NCBI RefSeq assembly: GCF_000217815.1
Contig: NC_015707.1
Coordinates: 1,538,014-1,602,013, forward strand
Direction of reading: 5' to 3'
DNA: 64,000 nucleotides
Source of the DNA: Pseudothermotoga thermarum DSM 5069
GTDB lineage: Bacteria; Thermotogota; Thermotogae; Thermotogales; DSM-5069
In this document: piece after piece, positions 39,569 to 53,635 of the stretch
Position numbering within the stretch: position 1 is the stretch's first letter
Layout: every line of letters begins with the position of its first letter
The notes under the pieces: model-generated
What the model saw: only the letters and a program-made list of their open reading frames with translations
Told to the model about the DNA's origin: nothing
Databases searched by the model: none
Made by a program: the position numbers and the translations under genes

Positions 39569-40912
39569 TCACATTTTAAGTATCCATTTCACAGTGTAAA
39601 AGTATACTGCAATTCCAGAGATATCAACCAAAGTTGTTAAAAGCGGTCCAGCCATTATAGCTGGGTCAACGTGTATCAGTTTACCTATGAATGGCAGCGA
39701 AGCTCCAAGTAGATTTGAATATATCGTCACAACAACCAATGCGGCGGCAACGGCAAAACTTACATTTAGTGAAGGGGTTGCTATCATAGATCTCAAGAAC
39801 AAAACAACGGCTAAAATGAATGCTATTATAGTCGAAACCACAAATTCTCTAACCATTACTTTCCACCAATCTTTTGGTTTTATCTCCCCAAGTGCCATTC
39901 CACGAATGATCAACGCAGAAATTTGCGAGCCAATGTTTCCCCCAGAATCAATCATCGCAGGCATGAAAGCGGCTATTACAGGCAAGGCTGCCAAAAGTTC
40001 TTCAAAACTTGCAATGATCCCTTGACTCACTGTTCCCAAAAGAAGCAATATCACAAGCCACGGCAGTCTTTTACCAACCAATTTAGGCAAACTCGTGTGG
40101 AAATACGATTCCTCTATTGTGATAACAGAACTCATCTTTTGGATATCCTCAGTTGCTTCTTCATCTATGACATCAACAATATCGTCTATGGTTATTATTC
40201 CAATCAATCTTTGCTCGCTGTCCACAACCGGTACAACAAACAAGTCGTATTTTCTCATTATCTGTGCCACTTGCTCTTGATCATCCGTTGCGTACACAAA
40301 CACCGGTTCTGGATTCATGACTTGGCTGACAAGATTCTCTGGGTCGGCAAAGATCAAATCTTGAAGTTCAACAATACCTACTAACTTGCGTGTTCTATCT
40401 ATTACAGGCATTACTTGAACGGTTTCTTTGTCCTTACCCTCCTTCCTGATTTTTTCAAGCGCTTCTTTAACGGTCATGTTTTCGTAAAGCTCAAGACATT
40501 TCGGAGTTGTTAAACGACCTGCAGAATTCTCAGGATAGTTGAGTAAGGACAAAGTCAAAGCTCTTTCCTCAGGGGTAAGGTAAGAAAGAAGCTGGTTGAC
40601 AACGTTTGCCGGCATTTCCTCCAAAAGCTCTGCTCTGTCATCTGGATCCATGGAAAGGAATATTTCACGAAGTTTTTCCTCTTTGAACAATTCTATCAAC
40701 GCTCTTTGATCATCTGCTTCCAATTCGCTGAAAACAATGGCAGCTTTATCTTTAGGTAATAAACGAAAAACGACGATTTTCTCGTCTGGTGGAAGTTCTT
40801 CTATCATTTCAAGTATTTCCGCTGGTTCTTGATCTGCAAGTAACATTTTCAACGTTCTAAAATCCTTGTTCTCGATAAATTTCTTGATATCGATTTGGAG
40901 CCTCACCTTCAT
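39569..40912 (-). CDS. mgtE: Magnesium channel/transporter MgtE
   Basis: Mg2+ channel of 447 residues: a helical MgtE N domain (about 25-125, with repeats such as D-P-D-D-R-A-E-L-L-E-E-M-P), a CBS-domain pair (about 130-260) and five membrane helices (about 285-445). The cytoplasmic part closes the pore when Mg2+ is plentiful. The M-P-A-M-I-D-S-G-G-N-I-G-S-Q motif is the ion-selective family signature. The ATG follows AGGAGGTGA. A short frame with its own strong ribosome site lies immediately upstream and may control translation. Confidence 0.93.
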   Translation of the reverse strand: MKVRLQIDIKKFIENKDFRTLKMLLADQEPAEILEMIEELPPDEKIVVFRLLPKDKAAIVFSELEADDQRALIELFKEEKLREIFLSMDPDDRAELLEEMPANVVNQLLSYLTPEERALTLSLLNYPENSAGRLTTPKCLELYENMTVKEALEKIRKEGKDKETVQVMPVIDRTRKLVGIVELQDLIFADPENLVSQVMNPEPVFVYATDDQEQVAQIMRKYDLFVVPVVDSEQRLIGIITIDDIVDVIDEEATEDIQKMSSVITIEESYFHTSLPKLVGKRLPWLVILLLLGTVSQGIIASFEELLAALPVIAAFMPAMIDSGGNIGSQISALIIRGMALGEIKPKDWWKVMVREFVVSTIIAFILAVVLFLRSMIATPSLNVSFAVAAALVVVTIYSNLLGASLPFIGKLIHVDPAIMAGPLLTTLVDISGIAVYFYTVKWILKM

Positions 40913-40922
40913 TCCATCACCT

Positions 40923-40973
40923 CCTAGGAAGTTTATGGTGGCAAACTTATGGAGTTACTGGTACCTTCCAAGG
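40923..40973 (-). promoter_or_regulatory. Candidate switch hairpin over the mgtE ribosome site
   Basis: In the mRNA CCTTGGAAG (40973-40965) can pair with CTTCCTAGG (40931-40923), eight of nine bases. This covers part of the mgtE AGGAGG and the leader TTG. An alternative hairpin, AAGTTT with AAACTT, shares bases with it, so the two folds exclude each other. Confidence 0.45.
40933..40971 (-). CDS. Candidate 12-residue mgtE leader peptide
   Basis: A TTG-initiated frame seven bases after AAGGAGGTG (40987-40979), a ribosome site as strong as any in the window. It encodes 12 residues, M-E-G-T-S-N-S-I-S-L-P-P, then TAA, eight bases before the mgtE ribosome site. A strong site with no other start codon in range argues it is translated. 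The Pro-Pro-stop ending could slow the ribosome. Leader peptides controlling Mg2+ transporter genes are known elsewhere (for example mgtL in enterobacteria), but this one has no recognisable sequence relation to them. Confidence 0.5.
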   Translation of the reverse strand: MEGTSNSISLPP

Positions 40974-41058
40974 CTTTTCACCTCCTTAAAAGTGATGTTC
41001 AACTTATATTTTAGCGATTCAACAATGCTTAAAAACCATGCTTGCCTAAAGTTATAAG

Positions 41059-41085: not shown

Positions 41086-42102
41086 CTATTCGACAACCTC
41101 GCTGGCAGCTTTTTTCAACCTGTTCATGACCGAGAAAAGTATTCCCTTAGGTTCCATGGCTAAAACTATCGCCGCCGAAACCGGCAAGTTATCTACACTT
41201 CTAAGAACGTTGTACAAATTCTGCGCTATGGTGAATGGTTCACTGAGTCGACCAAGAACAAGTATTCTTCGGTTTTTGAATTTGTGAGAGTACTCCTCAG
41301 GGCATATGATAACCGAATTTGGATACTTGGCAAAGACTTCGTCAAGTTGTTCTTCGTTGTAAACAAGAATCAATGGTTTGTTTGGAGAATAATGCCTGTA
41401 CGTCATGCCAGGTGAAAGAGGCCGGGATGGTTGTTTTTCCAACATCAATAGAAATTCTGGTACCTCCAAATCGGGAATAACTTGCTTAAGTTCTTCAATC
41501 GTTGCTGGCCCTGGTCGAAGCAGTATCGGACGATCTTTTGAAAAATCGATGATGGACGATTCGAGCCCAAGAGGTGTTTCGCCGGCGTCTATTATTACAT
41601 CGATCAACCCGTAGAGATCTTCCACGACATGTTCAGCTTTGGTTGGACTTGGTCTTCCAGAAAGGTTAGCACTTGGGGCAGCTATTGGGGTACCACTTAA
41701 CTTTATCAACAGCCTTGCAACCGGATGACTTGGCATCCTAACTGCAATGGTTTCAAGTCCACCAGTCACTTCTTTTGGTACTTTTGCGGATTTTTTGAAT
41801 ATCAAGGTCACCGGTCCAGGCCAGAATTTTTCGATGACTTTTTCAGCAATTTTTGTGTCTTGTTCTACAAGTTCATAAAGTTGCTGAAGTTCACAGATAT
41901 GAACTATCAAAGGGTTATCGGGTGGGCGATTTTTCACCTTGAAAATCTTCAAAACTCCAACTACGTTGAAACAATCAGCACCCAGGCCGTAAACGGTCTC
42001 TGTTGGGAACGCGACCACACCGCCTTCTTTTATAACCTTTGCGGCTCTTTGAAGAATACTTACATTTGGCTCAACAGCGTCTACTTTGAGAATCATCGTC
42101 AT
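41086..42102 (-). CDS. tsaC: L-threonylcarbamoyladenylate synthase (Sua5 type)
   Basis: Makes threonylcarbamoyl-AMP from threonine, bicarbonate and ATP for the t6A37 modification of tRNA. 338 residues: a YrdC/TsaC domain (about 8-205, with F-P-T-E-T-V-Y-G-L-G at 32-41, P-S-A-N and S-G near 144-149, and a late S-S-I-I-D motif) followed by the C-terminal Sua5 domain. This makes it the long Sua5 form. The ATG follows GGGAGGG. Its upstream region abuts the decayed insertion sequence. Confidence 0.92.
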   Translation of the reverse strand: MTMILKVDAVEPNVSILQRAAKVIKEGGVVAFPTETVYGLGADCFNVVGVLKIFKVKNRPPDNPLIVHICELQQLYELVEQDTKIAEKVIEKFWPGPVTLIFKKSAKVPKEVTGGLETIAVRMPSHPVARLLIKLSGTPIAAPSANLSGRPSPTKAEHVVEDLYGLIDVIIDAGETPLGLESSIIDFSKDRPILLRPGPATIEELKQVIPDLEVPEFLLMLEKQPSRPLSPGMTYRHYSPNKPLILVYNEEQLDEVFAKYPNSVIICPEEYSHKFKNRRILVLGRLSEPFTIAQNLYNVLRSVDNLPVSAAIVLAMEPKGILFSVMNRLKKAASEVVE

Positions 42103-42224: not shown

Positions 42225-42658
42225 ATGAAAGTTACAACAACAAATATCACCCAGTACCTATACCAAATTATACCAAACCTTTTTCAAAGACAAAGAGTTC
42301 CACATGAGGCGAAAGTATGAACTTGCATTAAGGAAGGCAGCAGCCATAATTGGAGTCAGTCATGAAGCCTTGAGGAAATGGTGGGCAAGGATGAAAGAAG
42401 AGATATTTGCTGAGAAGATAGAAGGCAATGCAGTAGTAGCTATAGACAAGATGAAAGTGAACATAAATGAGGTTAAGAGGAAGAAAGTGATCTATGCGTT
42501 GGTCAGTAAGACACGAGAGAAAGGCAAAGCAAGGGCCATGGTACTGGGAAGCGAGAAAAAAGAATATGGGATATTGGGAACACGAGCATGAGAGGTTTGG
42601 GGAAAGAAGTCTTGTTGAGAGTGTGATAGGGATAACGAGGTACAGGCTGAGGACATAG
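42225..42658 (+). pseudogene. Transposase remnant (frameshifted, internal deletion)
   Basis: ATG at 42225 follows AAAGGAGG and opens about 31 codons ending V-P-H-E-A-K-V-stop near 42318. The homologous continuation K-Y-E-L-A-L-R-K-A-A-A-I-I-G-V-S-H-E-A-L-R is in another frame, marking a frameshift near 42312-42316. The second piece runs through a helix-turn-helix and V-V-A-I-D-K-M-K-V, probably the first catalytic Asp region. At about 42560-42591 the frame shifts again, joining to H-E-R-F-G-E-R-S-L-V-E-S-V, a C-terminal motif of these enzymes. The central catalytic part is missing. Confidence 0.78.
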
Positions 42659-53077: not shown

Positions 53078-53635
53078 TTATGCCCTTTCAACGTACTCGC
53101 CAGTACGTGTGTCAACCTTAACGTATTCACCTGCTTCAACGAAGAACGGAACGGTGATTCTTAAACCTGTTTCCAAAATGGCAGGTTTACCACTTCCAGA
53201 AACTGTGTCACCTTTGAAAGCTGGTTCTGTTTCCACAACCTTCAAGGTCACAACGTTTGGAAGCTGCACTCCGATGACTTGTCCTTCGAGGAAAACCAGG
53301 TTCAATTCCATGTTTTCAACCAAATACCATTTTGCATCCTCAAGTTCTTCTTCGCTCAAACTGTACTGTTCATAGTCGTCTAAACACATGAAGTAGTAGT
53401 GATCACCATCTTTGTACAAATACTGAGCTGGTTTGAAGGTTAGATCGGCTTCTTCAACCTTGTCTCCACTGTTGAAGTTTTGATCTCTTACAAGACCTGT
53501 TTTCACGCTCTTCAACTTCGTTCTTATTATTCCCCTTCCCATGGCCATGTGGTGTTTGTTAACATCGATAACCCTGTAAGGTTCCCCATCGACGAGTATT
53601 ATCATACCTTTCCTGAGGTCACCAACTTCTATCAC
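53078..53635 (-). CDS. efp: Translation elongation factor P
   Basis: Relieves ribosome stalling at polyproline. 185 residues in three beta-barrels (KOW-like 1-64, OB 66-125, C-terminal 130-185). The GTG at 53635 is chosen because it follows GGAGGTG and gives the family N-terminus [10 protein letters not shown]. The domain I tip reads [14 protein letters not shown]. By family alignment the usually modified Lys/Arg is replaced by Met, with an Arg two residues later, so post-translational activation may differ. Confidence 0.94.

Follow-up and report, generated by a model that had tools for sequence, protein, structure and literature searches.

The locus analysed here lies in a window (the whole stretch of DNA under study, 64,000 nucleotides, positions 1538014-1602013) of the Pseudothermotoga thermarum DSM 5069 genome, which consists of one contig of 2,039,943 bases. 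It carries mgtE, encoding a Mg2+ transporter, and immediately upstream a short open reading frame (ORF), here called the leader. The features of the locus, in window coordinates and in the order of transcription, are as follows.

41008-41013, minus strand: TAAAAT, likely −10 element, proposed from its recurrence in relatives; the mRNA would start about 30 nt ahead of the leader start
40979-40987, minus strand: leader Shine-Dalgarno (SD) site AAGGAGGTG, read from the sequence; a GGAGG-type site is kept in the Pseudothermotoga-type (f1), Thermotoga (f3) and most other groups
40933-40971, minus strand: leader ORF with a TTG start (40971-40969), encoding LEGTSNSISLPP-stop, assigned from the sequence and coding-type conservation
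40933-40941, minus strand: Pro-Pro-stop (CCA CCA TAA) end of the leader
40920-40925, minus strand: mgtE SD site AGGAGG, 7 nt past the leader stop; by the assumed footprint it would lie partly under a ribosome paused at that stop
39569-40912, minus strand: mgtE, Mg2+ transporter of 447 aa, ATG at 40912, assigned from Pfam domains

The leader has 12 codons, TTG GAA GGT ACC AGT AAC TCC ATA AGT TTG CCA CCA TAA, with the stop at 40935-40933. Seven bases (aaaagcc) separate its SD site from the TTG, seven (acttcct) separate its stop from AGGAGG, and tgatgga separates AGGAGG from the mgtE ATG. The first-pass annotation had described an SD site, a TTG start seven bases on and a 12-codon frame ending in L-P-P-stop before mgtE, and direct reading of the minus strand confirmed this arrangement. 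The mgtE product matched the Pfam domains MgtE (PF01769; 1.7e-33), MgtE_N (PF03448; 3.2e-27) and CBS (7.2e-23). A search of the entire 2.04-Mb genome for SD-NTG-GA...CCNCCN-stop gave a single match, at the mgtE leader. By reading of the sequence alone, the gene preceding the leader (41086-42102) encodes a Sua5/YwlC-type protein, and a 95-aa ORF on the plus strand (42304-42591) resembles a transposase fragment. The efp gene for EF-P is located at 53081-53629 on the minus strand, approximately 12 kb from mgtE.

The first-pass annotation had also proposed a comparison of mgtE upstream regions across relatives, and its expectation held: the frame, the ribosome site and the Pro codons are conserved across Thermotogota. 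At a threshold of E<=1e-40, 52 of 103 searched Thermotogota genomes qualified as bearing mgtE, and in 40 of the 52 a leader ORF ending in Pro-Pro-stop lay immediately 5' of the gene. Genus-type labels other than Pseudothermotoga were assigned by reading the sequences. The leader was present in all ten genomes of group f1 with full mgtE (TTG start; first residue followed by E[GS]TS[SNT]S[FLI]SLPP), all ten of the Fervidobacterium-type group f2 (VEYPSYSSNKPP and relatives), eight of nine of Thermotoga f3 (VESTSLPP, VEGTSLPP, VESNNLPP), the single genome of f5 (MEDYPGSRPP), two of three of f11 (MGEDYPSSRPP, MGDDCPSSRPP) and nine of 12 of f10 (MDSTGSFFEFSDLPP, MGSKSKNYSDLPP, MDNCDSSKQKPP, MEDPLSSYSNKPP, MDSASSSSIEYANQPP). 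No Pro-Pro-stop leader was found before mgtE in 12 of the 52 genomes, and loci lacking it were recorded in G033, G045, G047, G048, G080, G081, G082 and G100, and at the divergent f9 copies. Second mgtE copies in G079, G090, G101 and G102 also had no leader in front. In G090 and G082, a second and divergent mgtE copy (L153, L154) follows a short frame that has an acidic/proline start and no Pro-Pro-stop (MSNEDSVPDSSCIY... and MEEDLPDSYK...).

Beyond the phylum, the Pro-Pro-stop leader was absent from all 132 mgtE loci inspected, comprising 60 loci from other phyla and 72 Clostridia/Nitrospirae and other loci. Two different upstream elements were observed there. In Lachnospiraceae, mgtE is preceded by a conserved short frame starting MSDVPER or MADIPER (acidic/proline) with a GGTGGT or AGGTGG site (L015, L018, L019, L023, L025, L026, L028, L033, L041, L050, L065, L066, L080); in several loci it overruns out of frame into mgtE, and the loci tested gave no Rfam match. 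In other Clostridia, a conserved MDAGSSSGTGGRR or MDTGSTSGAAGGRR follows GAGGCGAGA about 160-330 nt upstream of mgtE, a candidate frame or RNA element (L039, L044, L049, L053-L055, L057, L059-L064, L067, L068, L071, L075, L077, L079, L084).

A blind pattern search across the phylum also detected such a frame in genomes that have no close mgtE, where the next gene encoded CorA, identified by its GMN motif and by Pfam CorA matches (E 8e-55 to 2e-51). The CorA search found 42 Thermotogota genomes with a match, and only four of these also have a close mgtE. A corA leader with a Pro-Pro-stop end was found in 25 of the 42: nine of Thermosipho type (for example MSSESYTSSYSDEPLPRPP and MNSESFSSYSDDPLPRPP), seven of Marinitoga type (MDYFSCSEDPLSRPP), one in G098 (MDSSSSSKDVVSLPP), six of the Kosmotoga/Mesotoga-type group f9 (MELYSSEGDLPP, MELYSSESEPPP) and two of f7 (MESASNTEIPLRPP and the doubtful VARNAEMPTRPP). 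Seven further f9 corA loci end in PPL-stop and one in MPN-stop, while nine of the 42 genomes were without a corA leader. Among the matches listed, 49 were in frame, 31 of them before mgtE or corA and 18 scattered elsewhere. These comparisons give good support to the view that the leader belongs with Mg2+ transporters, on the unrelated MgtE and CorA alike.

We next turn to the frame itself. In the leader frame, pN/pS was 0.21 over all groups and 0.15 in f1, whereas the other two frames gave 0.97 and 1.97 over all groups. Substitutions at codon positions 1, 2 and 3 numbered 169, 109 and 390 over all leader groups; these pairwise counts are non-independent events, although the groups mostly agree (ratios of 0.07-0.40, with 1.03 in one two-sequence group). 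Of 46 distinct leader peptides, 44 have Pro-Pro immediately ahead of the stop; the wobble base of the Pro codons differs between loci, and TAA, TAG and TGA are all in use. An acidic residue occurs at residues 2-4 in 44 of the 46, and somewhere in all. Apart from the early acidic residue and Pro-Pro-stop, the peptides vary greatly in sequence and length (8-19 aa). As background, 321 other short ORFs of 7-20 codons with an SD site were taken from 586 kb of mostly Thermotogota DNA, and only two of them end in Pro-Pro. Based on this low background, the single match in the genome and the recurrence at mgtE in 40 of 52 genomes, the leader frame is more than a chance occurrence. It is a short ORF with a strong ribosome site in a Mg2+-transporter leader, its translation being indicated by the coding-type conservation, and its selection as a peptide is likewise well supported by the substitution pattern.

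Codon usage was also distinctive. Ser codons in the leaders are 78% AGY, compared with 32% in genes (long ORFs), and reach 100% in f3 and f9. Pro codons are CCA or CCG in 18 of 18 cases in f1, 27 of 29 in f2 and 15 of 17 in f9, compared with a fraction of 0.40-0.59 in genes; the corresponding count in f3 was four of ten. The serine bias could arise because pyrimidine-rich codons are avoided close to two ribosome sites, or from an RNA-level signal.

A consensus promoter scan at the mgtE leader returned no full sigma-70 promoter. TAAAAT lies 40-43 nt before the leader start in 10 of 10 f1 genomes, TAGAAT 42-45 nt before it in f3, and TGnTATAAT 26-47 nt before most corA leaders. Over all leaders, a −10 motif was counted in 49 of 58, compared with 32.5 in shuffles; the argument rests on the constant position and the extended TG rather than on presence as such. 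With a −10-like element 26-47 nt upstream in most groups, the leader RNA would be short and would have this frame as its first ORF. Typical 5'UTR lengths in T. maritima are 11-17 or 26-32 nt (PMC3636130).

Outside f9, 11-33 nt lie between the leader stop and the transporter start, and 42 of the 50 distinct loci have a gap below 30 nt. A ribosome is taken to cover about 10 nt past a stop codon and about 20 nt before a start codon. With these assumed footprints, a ribosome at the leader stop and a ribosome initiating on the transporter could not coexist where the gap is below 30 nt. L144 and L146 have the ribosome site of the transporter immediately after the leader stop. At the studied locus, the leader start and the mgtE start are 59 nt apart, and f1 holds no conserved alternative stems.

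The first-pass annotation had further suggested that mutually exclusive hairpins before mgtE act as the switch. The sequence of this locus does allow such pairings, but they are not conserved among relatives: the CATCAC/GTGATG-type pairing was found in this genome only and was rejected as a switch, the f1 consensus being a different, weak fold between the Pro-Pro region and the mgtE site. Single-sequence folds differ among relatives, no fold is common to the groups, and spacers of the Thermosipho and Marinitoga types are rich in A and form little structure. Its idea of a proline-containing leader peptide regulating a Mg2+ transporter fared better, since frame, SD site and Pro codons are conserved and recur on corA; the hairpins as switch did not survive. 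Its remark that no M-box is visible also proved correct. Neither the window nor any of 20 related loci gave an Rfam match at the gathering threshold, the only sub-threshold matches being snoR71 and RT-6 (E 2.7 and 4.6, far below threshold), and an M-box or other riboswitch at the mgtE leader was rejected for want of a covariance-model match.

The Pro-Pro codons were also considered as an anti-ribosome-site RNA element. This is disfavoured by the preference for CCA/CCG over CCU/CCC, so that outside f3 these codons do not appear tuned to pairing with GGAGG; in f3, CTTCCTCC is complementary to the ribosome site. A conserved hairpin over the transporter ribosome site was detected only in the f9 corA loci, with 16 pairs in the Mesotoga type (one two-sided and several one-sided changes) and 11 in the Kosmotoga type, giving modest support for the pairing. 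At 70 C the downstream SD site is predicted to become more accessible in most loci, and in many it is about half or more open. At that temperature, however, predicted access is only near 0.3-0.65 in f1 and 0.05-0.5 in f3, so that structure may play a part in these two groups. The f2 leaders L120-L122 and L124-L130 contain a small internal hairpin, GGAATA..TATTCC, within the ORF, and its variant GGATTA..TAATCC in L124 appears compensatory.

Taken together, we consider it probable, although by no means certain, that a leader peptide acts in cis, through slow Pro-Pro-stop termination and occlusion, to gate translation of the main Mg2+ transporter of Thermotogota. A short mRNA leader would start just ahead of a strong ribosome site, and ribosomes would translate a frame of 8-19 codons with an early acidic residue, a Ser-rich middle and a C-terminal Pro-Pro. 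Pausing is expected at Pro-Pro-stop, and outside f9 the held ribosome would cover or crowd the transporter ribosome site 0-20 nt downstream. The fraction of time for which a ribosome is held at the leader stop would then set initiation on mgtE or corA. As to sign, sufficient Mg2+ would most likely allow stable, complete translation of the leader and keep the transporter low, whereas under Mg2+ shortage the leader ribosome would be destabilised or fail to reach the stop, and the transporter would be made. We infer that the leader regulates the transporter; the response to Mg2+ and its direction are proposed by analogy. Direct occlusion cannot apply to the f9 corA loci, because the corA start lies 72-87 nt past the leader stop, and what is seen there instead is the hairpin over the corA ribosome site. 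The match to the acidic/proline destabilising motif is weak, as the early acidic residue is often single (VESTSLPP), and a pure peptide model leaves the AGY serine bias unexplained. The PPL and MPN ends in f9, and the 12 mgtE and nine corA genomes that have no such leader, also speak against the model.

The direction of control could also be reversed, which we regard as unlikely but deserving of weight. Low Mg2+ would then prolong the Pro-Pro stall and free GGAGG from CCNCC, or the terminating ribosome would reinitiate, so that the leader activates the transporter. In folds at 37 C, masking the stretch under a ribosome at the leader stop left the downstream site, that of mgtE included, more open by prediction in most loci, which would suit activation; the weak f1 consensus fold and the adjoining sites of L144 and L146, a geometry suited to reinitiation, point the same way, and mgtB is promoted by mgtQ translation (PMC8092293). 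However, the stalled ribosome would itself cover or crowd the freed site in most loci under the assumed footprints, in some loci the predicted effect is smaller at 70 C, and the avoidance of CCU/CCC except in f3 suggests that pairing with GGAGG is not what is selected. Another reading, to which we give a small chance, is that the leader lowers or couples transporter translation by a fixed amount, with no Mg2+ response. Translational coupling via short upstream ORFs is common, but a fixed coupler would have no need of Pro-Pro-stop, and the presence of the leader on two unrelated Mg2+ importers points to a reason connected with Mg2+.

It is very improbable that an RNA structure, riboswitch-like or an anti-ribosome-site hairpin, is the conserved element and the frame incidental. 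Folds are predicted in single sequences, among them the f2 hairpin inside the leader, the f9 corA hairpin is conserved (mainly by one-sided G-U/A-U changes), and the serine bias shows some RNA-level constraint; yet the coding-type ratio of 0.21 is confined to the leader frame, a fold common to the groups and an Rfam match are both lacking, some spacers are nearly unstructured, and CCA/CCG is used over the anti-site CCU/CCC. A free trans-acting peptide, acting for example on the transporter, could be imagined from a conserved peptide beside a transporter gene, but we give it scarcely any credence, given the great variation in peptide sequence and length and the lack of a second copy of the pattern in this genome. 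Within the preferred reading of a gating leader peptide, a more specific and tentative proposal, which we hold possible rather than probable, is that Pro-Pro-stop termination is itself the Mg2+ sensor, used phylum-wide to control MgtE or CorA and evolved apart from enterobacteria, in a setting where small folds would switch poorly in the heat.

We found no report of mgtE or corA leaders of Thermotogota in the open-access literature searched, and the main text of a non-coding RNA screen that included Thermotogae mentions neither mgtE nor magnesium. In the papers found, Mg2+ sensing by the ribosome through a leader peptide is known from enterobacteria. The minimal 8-codon Thermotoga leader (VESTSLPP-stop) would offer a compact system for the effect of Mg2+ on Pro-Pro termination and the possible involvement of EF-P.

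Slow termination with a nascent chain ending in proline occurs in TnaC, which senses tryptophan. In E. coli, termination is likewise slow when the nascent chain ends in Pro-Pro; YbeL-PP shares this C-terminal arrest with the present leader but is not a regulator (PMC3834316). CruR of Bordetella is also an upstream ORF with a near-terminal Pro-Pro (RAPP) arrest motif controlling metal genes, but it exceeds 100 aa, senses copper by CXXC and is Rho-dependent (PMC9426467). The M-box (ykoK) riboswitch is a Mg2+-transporter leader element as well, but a structured RNA, and gave no Rfam match here.

Closer parallels are found in enterobacteria. MgtL, the mgtA leader of Salmonella and E. coli, is a short translated Mg2+-transporter leader that contains acidic residues and prolines (EPDP motif), and the more efficiently it is translated, the less transporter is made (PMC11282234, PMC11552253); low Mg2+ destabilises ribosomes on its early acidic/proline motifs (PMC11282234). 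It differs in its 264-nt leader, Rho-dependent transcription attenuation, P-type ATPase MgtA and prolines at positions 3, 5, 7 and 9, not before the stop (PMC6460261). The Thermotogota leader is not MgtL proper, an mgtA leader with an N-terminal EPDP-type motif, to which only a few peptides (MEDPL, DEPLPRPP) bear a likeness. CorL, on corA of the same two species, is translated from a UUG start, and its efficient translation, like that of mgtL, lowers the transporter (PMC11552253); unlike the present leader, it works with Rho and long alternative stems, has a single proline in its conserved part and has no known Pro-Pro-stop. The Salmonella mgtC-mgtB intergenic mgtQ, an 8-codon ORF with an AGGAGG site, acts on translation initiation of mgtB, and its early acidic residues matter (PMC8092293); in contrast, it is intra-operon, requires stem-loops, does not require its Pro codon as such and lacks Pro-Pro-stop. 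By analogy, we infer that the Thermotogota leader works like mgtL, corL and mgtQ yet is separate from all three. Compared with MgtL, it is much shorter, ends in Pro-Pro-stop, stands on MgtE or CorA and is most simply read as translational. If true, the separate use of this shorter, probably translational arrangement in a distant phylum of thermophiles, and on transporters of two unrelated kinds, would point to a general use of ribosomes as Mg2+ sensors.
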